A stretch of DNA of 64,000 bases from Anaerolineae bacterium (GTDB taxonomy: Bacteria; Chloroflexota; Anaerolineae; Aggregatilineales; J027): assembly GCA_021463865.1 (NCBI GenBank), contig JAJTXY010000001.1:62001-126000 (forward strand), in the 5' to 3' direction. The notes under the pieces are model-generated. The model had not been told where the DNA came from. It searched no databases and was given only the letters and a program-made list of their open reading frames with translations. Below are positions 1,240 to 35,729 of the stretch, piece by piece. The position numbers and the translations under genes were made by a program. The stretch's first letter is position 1; every line of letters begins with the position of its first letter.

Positions 1240-3225
1240 GTGATTATGGTTCTGCCTGACCCCCTGATTGGTCGAAAACTAGGCGATTACAAGATTGTTG
1301 CTTTATTGGGCAAAGGTGGCATGGCCCGTGTCTACAAGGGTTTTGATGAAGCCCTGCAACGCTATGCCGCCGTAAAAGTCATCACGGGTGAATTTGCTAC
1401 CGCCGATGAAGCTGAATATACGGCCCGCTTTCAACGCGAAGCGCGTGCGATTGCCCGCCTGCATCATCCCAACATCGTCAGTATCTACCAATTTGGTCAG
1501 GTCGAAGGCATGTATTACATGGCGATGGTCTTTTTGGATGGCAAAGACCTGCGCGTGATGTTGAAAGAAGCGGCAACACGCGGCGAACGCATCCCACCGC
1601 TCATCATCCTCAAAATGGCGCGTGAAATTTGCAGTGCGCTCGATTACGCCCATACGCAGGGGGTCATTCACCGCGACATCAAGCCCTCCAATATCATGAT
1701 GACCACCAACGGAGCCGTGCTGACCGATTTCGGGCTGGCATTGACGACGATGGAAGGCACACTGGGGGATACTTTTGGGAGTGCCCATTACATCGCCCCT
1801 GAACAAGCGGTATCTTCGGCAAGGGCTGTTCCCCAAAGTGACCTCTATTCATTTGGCGTCGTTTTGTATGAGGCACTAACGGGCAAAGTGCCGTTTGATG
1901 ATCCGTCGGCGATGACAGTGGCGCTTAAACATCTCAATGAAGAACCGCCACCGCCCACTTTTTATAATCCGGACTTGCCGTCCGAGGTTGAAAAAGTGCT
2001 GTTGATGGCGCTGCACAAAGACCCCCGTCAGCGTTATGCCACCTGCCATGATTTATATTTAGCGTTAGATACGGCTTTGAAGCGCACCGAGGATGAAGAT
2101 ACGGTTGAAATCTCGACCAATTCAGGGCCAAAGAAATCTGCCGCCCAAGCCCAATCTCCCGCCGCATTGGAAGCCTATTTAAAAACACTGCGGAATGAGC
2201 CACCTAAGCCGACCACGCAGGGTGTACAAACGGTAGGGGATGTGGCATCGAATGTTGCCACCCAGCCGCCCCCCGTCTCGCGTCAGTCGGCATTTAGCAA
2301 TGAGGCCAAGACTCTCAAAAATGAGATTGTGTCGCCGCCGTATCGCACTGTCCTGCCGCCAATGGAAGAAAAGCGCGGGAATCGCTGGCTGTGGTTGGCG
2401 GGCATGATTCCGATTTTGCTCCTGCTGGTGGGGATTGTGGTGGTTGTAGTGATGCTCGGACAAAACGACGACGATAAACAAGACAACCCGACCAAACAAG
2501 CCGCCGCCAATCTCACGGATACCCCATCGGCTTCGCAAGCACCAACCGAGTCGCCGACGCAAGATAGTGCTTTGTTGACGCTCACGGCGGTTTTTCAAAG
2601 CAACCAAACGCTGAGTGCCATTATCAGCGCGACGGCAACCCGTACTTTGACACCGAGCATGACCGTCACGCAGGATTCGCAAGCGGGAGGCGGGTCTGCA
2701 TCAGCAACAGCTACCCCAACCAGTAGTTCCACGGCGACGGCGACGGCGAGTGCCACTTCGACCTCTACCCCAACCGCGAGCGAGACAACCAGCCCGACTG
2801 TTACCCCGACGCCAACTATTACCCCGTCTGCTACGTCTTCTATCCCGCCTGAAATTCGGTTAGAGTATTCGGACGACCACTTTGTGCTCTATAACATTTC
2901 CAACCGGGTGCAGAATATTGGCAACTTGTCCTTTCAGGGGAGTAATCAAGGCAGCTTTGAGGCCTTTGATTGGAATGCGGCAATTGAGGCAGCCGGCGGG
3001 GATATTTTCAATTTCGCGTCACAGGGCTGTGTACAAATCTCGATTGATCAATTTGTGAGCGGCCCAAGCTGTCGCTACTACAACGCCTATATCTGGCGCA
3101 CAGACAGTGATAGCCACTTTTGGCGAACCATCGGTGGCAACACGACGTTTACTGTACTCCGCAGTAATCAAGCTATCGCGGAATGTGAGGTTAGTGCAGG
3201 GGTATGTGAATTTGCCCTGCCCTAA
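1240..3225 (+). CDS. Transmembrane Ser/Thr protein kinase, PknB-like
   Basis: Cytoplasmic Hanks-type kinase that would phosphorylate Ser/Thr on target proteins in response to an outside signal. The kinase domain spans about residues 14-275: glycine loop GKGGMARVYKG, catalytic Lys in AAVKVI, HRDIKPSN from residue 144, DFG near 163, then an APE motif. All core residues are present, so it should be active. A linker follows, one membrane helix at about 383-408, a Thr/Ser/Pro-rich stalk of about 90 residues, and a C-terminal globular domain of about 125 residues with four cysteines that should face outside. That domain is not a PASTA repeat and I do not recognise it. The start is GTG at 1240, with AAGAG upstream; ATG at 1246 is an alternative. 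The stop overlaps the end of the convergent gene at 3222. Confidence 0.9.
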   Translation: MIMVLPDPLIGRKLGDYKIVALLGKGGMARVYKGFDEALQRYAAVKVITGEFATADEAEYTARFQREARAIARLHHPNIVSIYQFGQVEGMYYMAMVFLDGKDLRVMLKEAATRGERIPPLIILKMAREICSALDYAHTQGVIHRDIKPSNIMMTTNGAVLTDFGLALTTMEGTLGDTFGSAHYIAPEQAVSSARAVPQSDLYSFGVVLYEALTGKVPFDDPSAMTVALKHLNEEPPPPTFYNPDLPSEVEKVLLMALHKDPRQRYATCHDLYLALDTALKRTEDEDTVEISTNSGPKKSAAQAQSPAALEAYLKTLRNEPPKPTTQGVQTVGDVASNVATQPPPVSRQSAFSNEAKTLKNEIVSPPYRTVLPPMEEKRGNRWLWLAGMIPILLLLVGIVVVVVMLGQNDDDKQDNPTKQAAANLTDTPSASQAPTESPTQDSALLTLTAVFQSNQTLSAIISATATRTLTPSMTVTQDSQAGGGSASATATPTSSSTATATASATSTSTPTASETTSPTVTPTPTITPSATSSIPPEIRLEYSDDHFVLYNISNRVQNIGNLSFQGSNQGSFEAFDWNAAIEAAGGDIFNFASQGCVQISIDQFVSGPSCRYYNAYIWRTDSDSHFWRTIGGNTTFTVLRSNQAIAECEVSAGVCEFALP

Positions 3226-28949: not shown

Positions 28950-29339
28950 ATGACAAAAATCGCCCTAGTAATTGAAGCTGATCCAGATATGGCGGGTTTT
29001 TTGGCTACCGTCCTTAAACGCCGCTTTGATAAGGTAGTGGTTGCAGCCACGATTAGTGAAGTATGGCAGTTGCTGCGGGTGGCCCGGCTGTATCCCGATG
29101 TCCTACTAATTAATTCAGGCAGGCATCCAGCATTGGGGACGACCTTGGTGCGGGAAATACGCCAAATGCCACTTTTAAGCTCACTGCCGATTGTTTTGGT
29201 CTTGGAAGGCGAGAGTCGGCGGCGTCAATGTCAACAGTATCAGGACGACCAGACGCACCTTTTGGTTCATCCGTTTACCTATCCAGAACTGAATGCCGCA
29301 CTCGAAAACGCTTTAAGCCGACCTGCCAGTTATGTCTAG
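28950..29339 (+). CDS. Stand-alone pseudo-receiver domain protein
   Basis: 129 residues with the receiver (REC) fold pattern: acidic EADPDM at the end of strand 1, PDVLLIN on strand 3 and LLVHPFTY on strand 5. Two invariant residues are changed. The phosphoacceptor Asp is Asn (N55) and the strand-5 Lys is His (H107). It is therefore unlikely to be phosphorylated in the normal way and may work as a protein-protein module. No output domain or adjacent histidine kinase is present. Confidence 0.75.
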   Translation: MTKIALVIEADPDMAGFLATVLKRRFDKVVVAATISEVWQLLRVARLYPDVLLINSGRHPALGTTLVREIRQMPLLSSLPIVLVLEGESRRRQCQQYQDDQTHLLVHPFTYPELNAALENALSRPASYV

Positions 29340-29646: not shown

Positions 29647-30993
29647 TTATGGTCGGACTGCAATTTTACCGAAAATCGCGCTGGTCGGAGTAATTTCGGG
29701 TGTGGCAATTGTCGCCAATGTTACTGTAACGGTTTGCGGCTCTATCGTCACAGTTGCGACGTTTACCAATGAATCTTGGAGGAGGCGTACCTGTACGGGG
29801 ACATCCACCTGTGGGCCAGCAGCACGGCCACTCAAATCTATCGTCACACTAATGTCCTCAATCGTTAGGGTCTCAATCAGGGGCTGTGGCCCAATCACGA
29901 CCACACTGACGGAATCGGGCAGCATAATCGCGGTTAGAGTGGGGTCCAGATTGGCGATCTGGATAGGTACTTCATCAAAGTTGGCTGTCCCGATACGTGG
30001 TGAGATGGCGATGGTCACAGTGATCAACTGCGTTTCGGATTGCAACTGCACCCCTTCCGGCAAAATCACAGTTACATTGCGGCTAAAAGTGCCGGTTTGT
30101 CCGGTAATATCAATGGGTTCGGTTTGGACGATTCCGCCCATCACATTAATGATATTGGTATCGCCCTGTACGATGATAGTCTCGGGTTCAACGGTATACC
30201 CTTCGACGCGATACCCCTCGGCGGGTTCACCTGTGTAGACGGGTTGCACGGTTAACAATCCTTCTAAGGCTTGAATTTCCACCTCGCAGGTGACGTTTTC
30301 CGGCTCAATACTAAGCTGACCCAGCAGGCGGTTATCAATCGCGGTGTTGTTCTCATCTACCAAAGTGACGGCACGGGTGATGCTGCGTGAGGCGGTATAG
30401 GATTGTAGGTTGAGACGGGCTTGGGCGGCAATCACCATATCTACTAAGGTCGCAGGCCCACTTACCAACACCTCCAGCGGGTTGCATTTGGCTGGGGCAG
30501 TGGCTGGATAGGAGTAACCGGGGGGAGGTTCGACCACAACGATGGGCTGTACTTCGACATAGCGTTCTTTGACCTGTACCATTTCAACCGAGATAGTGGC
30601 TGGTGAAATGCTAATGACCCGACCACGCGGCCCGTCGGATTTGATACGCCCCTCCAACTCAATTTCATATTGGCCGGGAGCGAGACCACGCAAATCGGCC
30701 CAGACTTCAATATCATTGCTTTGCAGGATGTCCCACGTACTACGCGGGGCACGGATGGTGACACGGCTGGTACGGATTTCACCAGCGGTGGCGATATGAA
30801 CAATATCGGGGTCTTCGATAAAGCGGATGCTGATGGTCTGGGCAAATTCGCGCTGTTGGATCGGGTTGGCTTCTAATGTGGCGATAATCCAGATAAGGAA
30901 GGCCAGTACCACCGAGGTCACGATCCATGCACTGTTGGCGATGATAAACTGAATCGCGGGCAGGTTTAGGAGTTCTGCACGCAGACGGGTCAT
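29647..30993 (-). CDS. cdaR: YbbR-domain protein, CdaA regulator
   Basis: 448 residues: one N-terminal membrane helix (WIVTSVVLAFLIWIIATLEA) and about four YbbR beta-repeats outside the membrane, with segments such as ISIRFIEDPD and VDVPVQVRLL. In Firmicutes the homologue binds and tunes the diadenylate cyclase CdaA. The start codon overlaps the cdaA stop (ATGA), so the two are translated together. The third gene of the classic set, glmM, is absent here. Confidence 0.9.
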   Translation of the reverse strand: MTRLRAELLNLPAIQFIIANSAWIVTSVVLAFLIWIIATLEANPIQQREFAQTISIRFIEDPDIVHIATAGEIRTSRVTIRAPRSTWDILQSNDIEVWADLRGLAPGQYEIELEGRIKSDGPRGRVISISPATISVEMVQVKERYVEVQPIVVVEPPPGYSYPATAPAKCNPLEVLVSGPATLVDMVIAAQARLNLQSYTASRSITRAVTLVDENNTAIDNRLLGQLSIEPENVTCEVEIQALEGLLTVQPVYTGEPAEGYRVEGYTVEPETIIVQGDTNIINVMGGIVQTEPIDITGQTGTFSRNVTVILPEGVQLQSETQLITVTIAISPRIGTANFDEVPIQIANLDPTLTAIMLPDSVSVVVIGPQPLIETLTIEDISVTIDLSGRAAGPQVDVPVQVRLLQDSLVNVATVTIEPQTVTVTLATIATPEITPTSAIFGKIAVRP

Positions 30994-31859
30994 TGGCCGA
31001 TGTTCCCTTCGCGGTTCACCAAGCCGACCCATCGCCGCAATTTTTCTAGGCGATTGGACTCAGCCGGAGAGGTATCTGAGGCATCTTCTGGATTGGCGCC
31101 ATAAAAGGTCAGCAAAATGGTGGAAAGGCGGGTCGCATCTAAACGGCGAATCATGCGCCCGCCGTTGCTCACACTAATTTGGCCTGTTTCTTCCGAGACG
31201 GTTACAACCACCGCGTCGGAAATTTCCGACATGCCCAAACTAGCGCGATGGCGCGTACCGAGCTTGCGATCCCCTAGATTACGCCCTGAACTGAGGGGCA
31301 GCACACACGCCGCCGCCATGACCCGATCTCCCCGTACAATCACCGCGCCGTCATGCAGTTCCGTTTTGGGCCAAAAAATGGTCAGGAGGAGTTGGGGTGT
31401 AATTTCGCTGTCCAAATGGATGCCTGTGCTGATAAATTCATCCAAGCGGTTTTGACGCTCCAGTACGATCAATGCACCATGTCGTCGTTCGGAAAGGCGT
31501 CCAGCGGCTTGGCAAATCGCATTGACCACCATCTCGCGTTGGGTGATGGAATTTTGCCGGAAGCCCATACTGGCACGTCCCAGTCGTTCAAAGGCACGGC
31601 GTAGTTCCGGTTGGAAGATGATGGGAATGGCGACGGTAGTCATGGTGATGATGCCCCGTAAAATCCAATTGAAGGCCACCAGATTGAGGATGCTGCTTAA
31701 CAGCCCGATGACGACCATGACCACGATGATGCCACGCAGTACCAGCAAGGTCTGCGTTCCCCGAACAAGGAACGAAGCCCCAAAAATTAACAATGCCACC
31801 AGTAAAATATCTATGATGGCTTGTGAATCAATACTCTGGATTGTCCAAACTAAGTCCAT
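30990..31859 (-). CDS. cdaA: Diadenylate cyclase CdaA
   Basis: Makes c-di-AMP from two ATP. 289 residues: three N-terminal membrane helices (about 15-80) then a DAC domain with the DGA motif at 170-172 (LHDGAVIVRG) and RHRAS at 203-207. Both motifs are intact, so the enzyme should be active. The usual role of c-di-AMP is control of potassium and osmotic balance and cell-wall homeostasis. No ribosome site is clear before the ATG. The C-terminal 40 residues are a charged tail. Confidence 0.95.
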   Translation of the reverse strand: MDLVWTIQSIDSQAIIDILLVALLIFGASFLVRGTQTLLVLRGIIVVMVVIGLLSSILNLVAFNWILRGIITMTTVAIPIIFQPELRRAFERLGRASMGFRQNSITQREMVVNAICQAAGRLSERRHGALIVLERQNRLDEFISTGIHLDSEITPQLLLTIFWPKTELHDGAVIVRGDRVMAAACVLPLSSGRNLGDRKLGTRHRASLGMSEISDAVVVTVSEETGQISVSNGGRMIRRLDATRLSTILLTFYGANPEDASDTSPAESNRLEKLRRWVGLVNREGNIGQ

Positions 31860-32305: not shown

Positions 32306-33433
32306 GTGTATACCGACCCATCAAGCTGGACATGTATTCACCCCAAGTTGGGGCTTTATCGCTATGAAGGGATGGCCCAGCGGCGTTCACTCCCCTCTAA
32401 GCCGATGTTGTTTTTGCACGGCACCCTGTCCAGCCATCGTTCTTGGAGTAAGTTGGCGGAACAACTTTGGGCTGAGGGGGCGAATTACATTTATGCGGTG
32501 GACGTTGAAAGCCTGCATAACGCCGTCACCATGCCCCAATTTTCGGCCTATCTGGCGGAGGTCATCCAATTTTTGTTGGATGTCGAACGCGGCGGGGAAT
32601 CTGAACTGGCGCTGATTGCGTATGCGGCGGGTGCGGTGAATGCGTATCGCTATTGGCTAGAATATGCCGATCAGTCACGTCTTATGATGTTGTTTTTAAT
32701 TGCCGCGCCGCATGACCGCACCACATTTCCTCTGCTGAGGGAAATCTATATCAATGCCGGGGTGGAGAATAATCAACCACGTCCATCGGATACATTTCAA
32801 AATTTCACACGGGTCGAGGCGGTACAGGCCCAATCCTCTACCGTGCTAGTCAATATTTTTGGGAATCTGATGGGGCCGGACTTTGACGGGGTAGTGCGAG
32901 GCTTGCGGCTGCCTGAAGCGATTAACCAAGTGTTGCCGTTAGATCATCAAAGCCTAAATAAAGACCAGCGGGTTGCCAAGATTATTTTGAGTTATTTGCA
33001 GGGCGAATATTATCAGGTCAAATTGAAACTAGTTGGACTGCGATTGCGCCGCGAGGATGGGGAAGGCTTATCCGGGCCAGTCGCGTTTGAGGTGGATCGC
33101 CATCGCACCCCGCCGGACACGGTGTTTCAGGGGATTACTGAACGGCTCTATTTGTTTGAGGAGCGAGTTCCGCCGATCTACACAATGGCCTATCCGATCT
33201 CGGCGAGTTCGGCCACCATTACCTTACAGTTACGAGATTTAAGCAATGTATCGAGCCGCCGCCGCCGCATGTATACCCGCCTGCATATCCCCTTGAAAAA
33301 AGACGAGGGCAGCATCCATTCCATGCAAGACAGCGAGGGGTCGGATTTGTTGTGGCGGGTGACGTGCCAGCGAATGCCTATCGTCTTGGGCGAATGGTCG
33401 AAGGAACTGCCGGATATTGGACGGGGCATCTAG
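32306..33433 (+). CDS. Alpha/beta hydrolase-fold protein lacking the nucleophile
   Basis: 375 residues. The oxyanion-hole motif LFLHGTLSSHRSW (about 35-47) and the late histidine region LPLDHQSL (His at about 214) match lipases of the EstA/LipA type. The nucleophile elbow, normally GxSxG, reads A-Y-A-A-G at 105-109, so the serine is Ala. The protein is therefore likely a non-catalytic relative. The C-terminal 140 residues are a separate beta-rich domain of unknown kind. GTG start. The next gene, also a degenerate enzyme, begins 25 bases after this stop, suggesting an operon. Confidence 0.7.
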   Translation: MYTDPSSWTCIHPKLGLYRYEGMAQRRSLPSKPMLFLHGTLSSHRSWSKLAEQLWAEGANYIYAVDVESLHNAVTMPQFSAYLAEVIQFLLDVERGGESELALIAYAAGAVNAYRYWLEYADQSRLMMLFLIAAPHDRTTFPLLREIYINAGVENNQPRPSDTFQNFTRVEAVQAQSSTVLVNIFGNLMGPDFDGVVRGLRLPEAINQVLPLDHQSLNKDQRVAKIILSYLQGEYYQVKLKLVGLRLRREDGEGLSGPVAFEVDRHRTPPDTVFQGITERLYLFEERVPPIYTMAYPISASSATITLQLRDLSNVSSRRRRMYTRLHIPLKKDEGSIHSMQDSEGSDLLWRVTCQRMPIVLGEWSKELPDIGRGI

Positions 33434-33458
33434 CGAGTTTGAAATATAGGGGAAATCA

Positions 33459-35729
33459 GTGAAATTAGAAGCCTTACTTGGTCATCTATTCGTCGTTGGA
33501 GGGCGCTCACTCAGCAGCAAACCGCCGGGAGCATTGGTACAGGTTGCCCCGCGCCGTGCCCATCGGACTCGTGAGAATGATACCCTATTTGTTTTGATTA
33601 CCCCGGCTGGGCAAGCCCAAGTCTCGGCGAGTTTTTATGAGAATTTGGCAAAGGTCGCCTCCGAGAATTATTTTAAGTCGCGGGTGGGGGTGACCGGGGC
33701 ACTGCGTGAGGCGTTTAATGCCATTAATGCCGCCATTCAGGAGCAGAATCAAAAACAGGCCACTGATTATCGAGCCGGGGCGTTGTTGATGGTCAAGCGC
33801 GGCGAAGAAATCTTTTTGGCGCGGTCTGGCACAACCCTGTGTGTGTCGCGGCAGGCGGGCCAATATGTGACGTTTCCTGATGACCCCGACATGATTAATT
33901 TGATGCCGCTGGGGTCACAAACCAACCCGGTGCTCGAATTTGCCCATTATGCACTGCAAGCCAACGATATGTTTGTGTTGGGAGATGCGGGTTTGGCAGT
34001 CGTGACCGATGAAATGTTGCAGAAAGCGACAGGTACAGGCGACATCAATCAGGTGTTGGAGATTCTGGAAAAGGCCGTACAGCGTCAAGCCTTTGCCTCG
34101 GTGGTTCAATTTGTCGGGCCGGATGGGGCGACTGCGCCCGCTGCACCGCCACAGTCAGTTGTGACTAATGCGACACCTGAAACCCATCCAGAGGCTGGCA
34201 GTGAAGCCATTCCAACGGCGGAGTCGGTGGCCCCTGTTGAGCCAACCCAGTCGCCCGATACCGCGCCTATGGTCAGTGAAATCGGGCCTTCTAGCGATAC
34301 AGTGGGATTAGAAATAGGGGAAGAAGCGCCGACCCCTGAGCTATTACACTCCGAACCCTCGATTCCATCTGATACCCCCGCTGAGGAATCCGAGCAGTTA
34401 GGGATGCCACGCACGATGGTGGTGACGGTGTTGATGCTGATTTCCAATGCACTGGCAGGGATTGCACGGGCGACCAATGCTGCCCTTGATCGTATTTTGC
34501 CTGAGCCGGAAGAAGGTCGGCGGGATGGCAAAGTGGTGCCGATGAATGTAGTAGCGTTAATCGCTATTGTCGTGCCGACAATTATTGCGATTATCGTGGT
34601 GGGGCTGGTGCTTTCTGAACGTGACACCACCAATTTTGAACAGTATCGCACAGACGCGGTGTCGGCAGTCGAAGAAGCCCGCACATTTGGGCAAGATACC
34701 AATGGCGACCCTAAGACGGGGATGGAATTGTGGAATATTGCCTTGACGCTGACCCGTCGCGCCTACAACGAAGACCCAGAGGACAGTGAAATCCGCGAGA
34801 TGTTGATTGAGGCCCAAAACAATATTGACCGCTATGACCGAGTGCGGCGGATACAGATCACAAAATTGCGCGAGTTTGGCGAGAATGCTGATTTGCGCGG
34901 GCCGATTATTTCCGCCAATACGGTTGATCTTTACACCCTCGATAAGGCACGGGGGGCGGTCTTTCACGATACACTGGACACCTCCGGGACAAACATTATC
35001 CAAGAACGCGATATTGCCGTCATTCAACGGGGGATGCGGGTGCGGGAATTTACGGTTGCCAATCTGGTAGATATTGAATGGATTGGGAATGATGGTGGAG
35101 CCGATCAAGATAACGCGCTGGCGGCATTGGATGAAAACGGCCTGTTGATTACCTATAACCCGACCTTTCCACCCGCGACGGGGATTCAATTGGTCAAGCC
35201 GCCTACGTGGAATCGTCCGATAGCCATTGCCCTGTGGCGTCAGAATTTCTATGTCTTGGATGCGGGCGCGAATCAGATTTGGCGCTATGAACCGGTAGAC
35301 GGGGCGTATTCCGAACAACCCTCCGAATATTTTGTTGGCAGCGAACGGCCTAATTTGACAGGGGCGGTGGATTTTGCGATTGACGATCAAGGCTCGATTT
35401 ATATCCTGTTTGGCGATGGATCGTTGGAAAAATATCGCGGTGGACAGCCAGAAACCTTCGATTGGTTCAATGCTCCGGTGGATGGATTTACCAATGGGCG
35501 GGCCTTGTTTATTGATAACAACCCCATTTCCTATTCGCTTTATGTCGTTGACCGGGTGCATCAAGGCGTGTATAAAGTGTCGTTTGGTGGCGAGGTCAAT
35601 GATGGGTATAAGCCCTCCAATCAATTAAATGCGTTTGATAACTTGACCGGAGTGGCGGTGGATAGTTCGCGGGGCTATGCGCGGATGTATGTGCTGTCGG
35701 GGAATTCGTTGTATTTGATTAGCCCATGA
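33459..35729 (+). CDS. Membrane protein with degenerate PP2C domain and outer propeller
   Basis: 756 residues. The N-terminal 215 residues follow PPM/PP2C phosphatases (YRAGALLMVKRGEEIFLARS, LQANDMFVLGDAGLAVVTDE). The metal-binding motifs are changed: GDAGL stands where SDGL is usual, and the early DG and final DN pairs are absent. A Pro/Ser-rich linker (about 222-310) and one membrane helix (about 364-386) follow. Outside lie an alpha-helical TPR-like piece and a beta-propeller-like region with repeated FAIDDQGSIYILFGDG-type NHL motifs. GTG start after GGGGAAA. Possibly a signalling partner for a PknB kinase, by analogy only. Confidence 0.7.
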   Translation: MKLEALLGHLFVVGGRSLSSKPPGALVQVAPRRAHRTRENDTLFVLITPAGQAQVSASFYENLAKVASENYFKSRVGVTGALREAFNAINAAIQEQNQKQATDYRAGALLMVKRGEEIFLARSGTTLCVSRQAGQYVTFPDDPDMINLMPLGSQTNPVLEFAHYALQANDMFVLGDAGLAVVTDEMLQKATGTGDINQVLEILEKAVQRQAFASVVQFVGPDGATAPAAPPQSVVTNATPETHPEAGSEAIPTAESVAPVEPTQSPDTAPMVSEIGPSSDTVGLEIGEEAPTPELLHSEPSIPSDTPAEESEQLGMPRTMVVTVLMLISNALAGIARATNAALDRILPEPEEGRRDGKVVPMNVVALIAIVVPTIIAIIVVGLVLSERDTTNFEQYRTDAVSAVEEARTFGQDTNGDPKTGMELWNIALTLTRRAYNEDPEDSEIREMLIEAQNNIDRYDRVRRIQITKLREFGENADLRGPIISANTVDLYTLDKARGAVFHDTLDTSGTNIIQERDIAVIQRGMRVREFTVANLVDIEWIGNDGGADQDNALAALDENGLLITYNPTFPPATGIQLVKPPTWNRPIAIALWRQNFYVLDAGANQIWRYEPVDGAYSEQPSEYFVGSERPNLTGAVDFAIDDQGSIYILFGDGSLEKYRGGQPETFDWFNAPVDGFTNGRALFIDNNPISYSLYVVDRVHQGVYKVSFGGEVNDGYKPSNQLNAFDNLTGVAVDSSRGYARMYVLSGNSLYLISP

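Follow-up and report, generated by a model that had tools for sequence, protein, structure and literature searches.

Two adjacent genes, here named HYD and PP, encode a lipase-fold protein and a PP2C-fold membrane protein that have both lost catalytic residues; the predicted folds, the loss of these residues, the locked gene pair and the purifying selection acting on it are all directly supported. They lie on the forward strand of the window, the 64,000-nucleotide stretch of an Anaerolineae bacterium of the order Aggregatilineales that was analysed as a whole (contig JAJTXY010000001.1, positions 62,001 to 126,000). We propose, with about an even chance of being right, that PP is a receptor pseudophosphatase that senses the envelope, and that HYD is its dedicated pseudo-lipase adaptor. 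The pair has been kept by evolution though neither product seems enzymatically able, which suggests that old folds now sense and bind. The initial annotation had already described two degenerate enzymes in one operon, suggested that their folds serve as binding modules, and named the kinases of the window, as a speculation, as natural partners. The two genes do form an operon-like pair on the same strand, both products have lost catalytic residues, and a use of both folds as binding modules is a reasonable reading; the interpretation is partly supported: its outline holds, its range is narrower and its kinase part lacks support. The C2-like domain of HYD, the likeness of PP to PknD and the LCP gene that follows PP in related loci are additions to it. 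In the parts of the literature covered by our search, no published description of a family of the HYD/PP type was found.

The HYD gene (32306..33433, + strand) has a GTG start and encodes 375 amino acids, comprising a lipase-fold pseudo-hydrolase and a C-terminal C2-like domain (AlphaFold2 model from 10 sequences, pLDDT 79.4, pTM 0.83). Structure and profile matches agree on an alpha/beta-hydrolase, lipase A-like domain at residues 29-235 (32390..33010), whose fold is that of Bacillus subtilis lipase A and of the Archaeoglobus fulgidus lipase (Z 16.8-18.4): residues 29-235 aligned with 2zyi at a Z of 18.4 (rmsd 2.8, 164 aligned residues; VIA-align) and with lipase A 1isp at a Z of 16.8, and the Archaeoglobus lipase matched most of the HYD length in Foldseek. 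The HYD family profile retrieved lipase A chains with E-values of 1e-8 to 1e-6, among them a B. subtilis lipase A variant (E 1.3e-8). NCBIfam and Pfam gave no match above cut-off for either HYD or PP, the best Pfam hit of HYD, DUF915, staying under the cut-off at E 3e-4. The same family profile aligned the nucleophile elbow of HYD onto VAHSMGG of lipase A. Where active relatives have GxSxG, the window protein reads AYAAG (A105-Y106-A107-A108-G109; 32618..32632), so that the catalytic serine is replaced by Ala107, while the presumed triad members Asp194 (32885..32887) and His214 (32945..32947) are kept in the alignment; the initial annotation had stated in general terms that other features of the hydrolase were retained. 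Window HYD differs from both lipases in lacking the nucleophile, and also in carrying a C2-like C-terminal domain.

This C-terminal beta domain (residues 236-360; 33011..33385) is supported by Foldseek matches and by its conservation. Its resemblance to C2 domains is of moderate quality: with a model built from 10 sequences, Foldseek gave moderate scores (E 7e-6 to 1e-4, TMt 0.45-0.60), the matches including 9zk0 (E 7e-6), 3w57 (TMt 0.60) and 1rlw (E 2.8e-5), the C2 domain of cytosolic phospholipase A2, while a profile of the domain matched C2 chains among solved structures at chance level only (E 0.3 or worse). Among 11 HYD sequences, the C2-like part is better conserved than the hydrolase part in all 55 pairs, with mean pairwise identities of 41.6% and 31.2%, respectively. 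HYD also has an invariant patch formed by RR (residues 319-320) and QDSxGS (residues 341-346), a candidate site for direct contact with PP.

The elbow position was read in 15 HYD orthologues, and carries serine in two, alanine in seven and glycine in six. Alanine is found in the five genomes of the window's genus, all of which have an identical AYAAG, and in G036 and G026; glycine occurs in G005, G007, G009, G031, G015 and G021, the last read in another frame. The expectation that the Ser-to-Ala change would be fixed in homologues therefore holds within the genus, and the serine is gone from 13 of the 15 orthologues, but G006 (GHSTG) and G014 (GHSIG) retain a full Ser-Asp-His triad, and HYD may be an enzyme in these two genomes, judging from its residues. 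All nine members of family f1 keep the Asp and the His as well as an oxyanion-side HG or HS motif, and in the eight other than G006 only the Ser of the triad is gone; the three f5 members have lost the whole triad, and f7 does not keep the Asp and His columns either. On the HYD tree, G006 branches as sister to the rest of f1 and G014 as sister to f7, a pattern that needs two changes if regain of the serine is allowed and three losses, counted by hand on the tree, if it is not. As both serine-bearing genomes keep the whole triad and a GHSxGG motif, we adopt the latter count, and the positions of G006 and G014 imply that the serine was lost about three separate times, provided that it is ancestral. 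Nucleophile loss in the order is not unique to HYD, since 12 other hydrolase loci that match the hydrolase half alone, taken as a control, have Ser in six cases, Gly in three, Asp in two and Ala in one. These 12 loci (L017, L018, L020, L021, L028 and seven more) make up a second alpha/beta-hydrolase-like group of the order, with a variable elbow; five of its sequences begin like ENDLVHYEVLGRGRPV and finish like W.RR.R, and the group may represent another recurrent pseudo-hydrolase.

The PP gene (33459..35729, + strand, GTG start, 756 amino acids) begins 25 bases after the HYD stop codon, a spacing that agrees with the initial annotation, and the gap (33434..33458) holds the sequence AGGGG ahead of the PP start. 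The product was modelled with AlphaFold2 from 47 sequences (pLDDT 82.5, pTM 0.53), and is composed of a PP2C-fold domain without its metal residues (residues 1-222; 33459..34124), a disordered linker (residues 223-318; 34125..34412; pLDDT below 50 for residues 226-320), a predicted helix that is perhaps membrane-associated (residues 319-346; 34413..34496), a membrane helix supported by model and sequence (residues 362-388; 34542..34622), and a six-bladed NHL propeller (residues 460-756; 34836..35726). The PP2C fold is supported by Foldseek matches of residues 1-222 to PppA, tPphA and PstP (TMt 0.66-0.68) and by a profile of 26 PP N-terminal domains, which found the same three proteins with E-values from 2e-13 (tPphA) to 5e-8; no PP2C match was obtained for PP at the Pfam cut-offs. 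PP thus shares fold and sequence profile with these PPM/PP2C phosphatases, from which it differs by the replacement of its metal-binding Asp residues and by its fusion to a membrane helix and a propeller. In structure comparison the propeller resembles the Brat NHL domain (Z 25.4) and the PknD sensor 1rwi (Z 23.4), and Foldseek matched it to 1rwl, also a PknD sensor domain, with a TMt of 0.74. Lys and Arg are commoner before the membrane helix than after it in 39 of 47 PP homologues, according to which the N-terminus and the PP2C domain should lie inside; PP would therefore probably have a cytosolic PP2C domain and an external propeller.

This architecture recalls Mycobacterium tuberculosis PknD, for which PMC1262709 describes a layout of kinase, membrane region and NHL repeats. 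Both proteins have one membrane helix, in PP predicted from model and sequence, followed by an NHL propeller of like fold; however, PknD has a Ser/Thr kinase in the cytosol, where PP has a metal-less PP2C fold, as identified by Foldseek. PHLPP2 and TAB1 are likewise pseudophosphatases with PPM folds that are inactive yet conserved, but these are animal proteins with other domains, and their likeness to PP is by description. A membrane scaffold role has been proposed for PHLPP (PMC12002173).

None of the three metal-binding Asp residues of PP2C phosphatases (motif 1, GDSR and SDGL) is present in window PP. Their places are taken by Thr48 (33600..33602), Thr125 (33831..33833; profile alignment and homologue comparison) and Ala177, the last within G175-D-A177-G-L179 (GDAGL for SDGL; 33981..33995), where the initial annotation had correctly placed lost metal motifs in a PP2C-like domain that is joined to a membrane helix and an outer propeller. 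The motif 1 position was aligned by eye because the tPphA profile match begins downstream of it. Among 47 PP homologues an Asp is found at motif 1 in four, at GDSR in none and at SDGL in two, never together, and none of 20 further homologues, drawn from the 114 PP-positive genomes across the phylum, has two or more of the three. A possible retention of the metal motifs in relatives was thus looked for, and no homologue among these has more than one. As a control, two of three ordinary PP2C genes elsewhere in the genome show intact DGxGG and SDGL motifs, the third one not being recovered by the motif script. The absence of two metal Asp residues from every homologue, including the phylum-wide set, indicates that the loss is old; in terms of these aligned residues the degeneracy of PP is ancient, unlike the more recent pattern seen in HYD, and the two differ in age. 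The GDSR site of many distant PP homologues, which come from several classes of the phylum (L210-L228), has given way to a conserved AQVxPAQA-like motif, perhaps a new binding site.

PP was detected in 147 of 154 genomes of the order, including all 90 near-complete ones; a phylum-wide sample of 301 genomes contained it in 114. Weaker matches came from the Patescibacteria records L160, L161 and L163 and from L162; a plasmid search for PP gave no match. HYD, recognised in these counts by its C-terminal domain, is restricted to 15 of the 154 genomes (f1, 9/10; f5, 3/5; f6, 1/1; f7, 2/2), and in a sample of 346 genomes of the class, evidently without the known carriers of other families, the C2-like domain was found in four, all of the window's genus. 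In each of the 15 HYD genomes, which belong to four families, HYD is directly followed by PP in the same orientation, with gaps of -40 to 72 bases, and HYD without PP was never found among the 154 genomes of the order. The pairing is therefore real, and the suggested conservation of gene order holds wherever HYD occurs; it is not general, since 147 of the 154 genomes have PP but only 15 have HYD. Most PP-bearing genomes of the order have no HYD, which is therefore not essential for PP. HYD presence requires five changes on the PP tree, at least four of them forced by well-supported branches, consistent with one gain followed by losses in f4, f8, f2 and one f5 genus. At L085 (G021), HYD and PP appear to be split between frames, through an assembly error or real damage.

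In the window, the pair has the divergent cdaA/ybbR genes on one side and tsaD on the other. The flanks vary among genomes: TsaD is downstream in the window, G006 has a response regulator upstream and LCP downstream, and G031 has ClpC upstream. The CdaA and YbbR genes (c-di-AMP synthesis; 29647-31859, - strand) lie just upstream of the pair, an arrangement also kept in L100-L104, and a small receiver-like protein is encoded near them (28950-29339; Response_reg, E 1e-4, under the Pfam cut-off). In 16 of 64 loci (L116, L118, L120, L125-L129, L131, L132, L134, L135, L138, L139, L141 and L147), a stand-alone response-regulator receiver protein of about 123 amino acids is encoded a short distance upstream of PP. 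Among the 58 loci whose sequence extends 1.2 kb beyond PP, an LCP gene directly follows PP in 18 and does not adjoin it in 40; three of the 18 come from outside the order (L140, L146, L151), two belong to the window's family (L120, L123), and one member matched LytR_cpsA_psr with an E-value of 3.9e-39. LCP proteins link glycopolymers to the cell wall (PMC7831098). The LCP genes of the window genome are on other contigs, none being beside PP in the window, and we infer an envelope role of the pair from the LCP gene adjoining PP in related loci.

One rival reading is that HYD lost its use as a hydrolase and is on its way out, with PP a mere neighbour. Such decay would fit the seemingly four losses on the PP tree, the N-terminal part of the G021 copy lying in another frame and the further active-site erosion in f5 and f7. 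However, the catalytically dead genus shows very low dN/dS throughout HYD (hydrolase half, 0.016-0.048; C2-like half, 0.013-0.048) and, outside the linker, in PP (PP2C domain, 0.000-0.045; helix plus propeller, 0.026-0.065); only the PP linker evolves with a dN/dS of 0.29-0.33, a value obtainable from three comparisons. These values are limited to the genus, wider comparisons being too saturated (dS to G001 is already 1.28, nearly saturated). HYD and the PP2C domain are under strong purifying selection, and neither gene behaves as a decaying one. As the elbow is identical in five of five genomes and dN/dS is so low, its degeneracy is no effect of chance or assembly, and the two genes stay together in all 15 genomes while their flanks vary; we consider decay of HYD distinctly unlikely. 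It would be similarly surprising if HYD remained catalytic through a different nucleophile or mechanism, to which the Asp, the His and the oxyanion-side HG or HS motif of all nine f1 members could point: in the window's genus, the elbow position of AYAAG is occupied by neither Ser nor Cys nor Asp, and Asp and His are also gone from the f5 and f7 members.

Ser/Thr kinase signalling was the partnership initially suggested, in which the pseudo-PP2C domain would bind phosphoproteins or a kinase such as that of the window. A Pkinase protein is indeed encoded at 1240-3225, and PPM pseudophosphatases are discussed as scaffolds in PMC12002173. This is, however, the sole kinase among the window proteins scanned and lies about 30 kb from the pair, and no Ser/Thr kinase was present among the annotated PP neighbours, which cover part of the recurrent clusters and single neighbours. 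Catalytically active PP2C proteins do occur beside kinases in other systems, with an architecture unlike that of PP (PMC7159879). We regard a kinase partnership as rather improbable. That PP is still a phosphatase with an unusual metal site, as the single Asp persisting at one of three positions in some members might hint, is highly improbable given that none of 67 sequences (47 and 20) has two or more of the three Asp residues.

Under the receptor and adaptor model that we prefer, topology, complex formation and ligand are all inferred. The NHL propeller outside the membrane would read some envelope state or ligand, by analogy with PknD; the single helix would span the membrane; and the metal-free PP2C domain would bind a partner in the cytosol rather than dephosphorylate it, as proposed for PHLPP. 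HYD would be the cytosolic partner dedicated to PP, probably synthesised through coupled translation, its lipase fold and C2-like domain forming a binding module for lipid, the membrane surface or PP itself. It could dock on PP or the membrane through the C2-like domain, the hydrolase pocket then serving to bind a ligand, and in triad-bearing lineages HYD is perhaps still an enzyme controlled by PP. More broadly, and tentatively, at somewhat less than an even chance, PP may represent an ancient, phylum-wide and unnamed class of transmembrane receptor pseudophosphatases in the Chloroflexota, with likely relatives in Patescibacteria, that sense the envelope via the NHL propeller and signal by binding, without enzyme activity; one order would have recruited a C2-bearing lipase, whose nucleophile was then lost repeatedly because binding sufficed.

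Pseudoenzymes are well studied in animals and less so in bacteria. Here, every near-complete genome of an order carries, under strong selection, a dead phosphatase with the build of a surface receptor. A bacterial lipase fold bearing a C2-like domain would be noteworthy as well. HYD shows repeated loss of the catalytic serine, and with active-looking and dead versions occupying the same gene position, the step from enzyme to binding module becomes directly testable.
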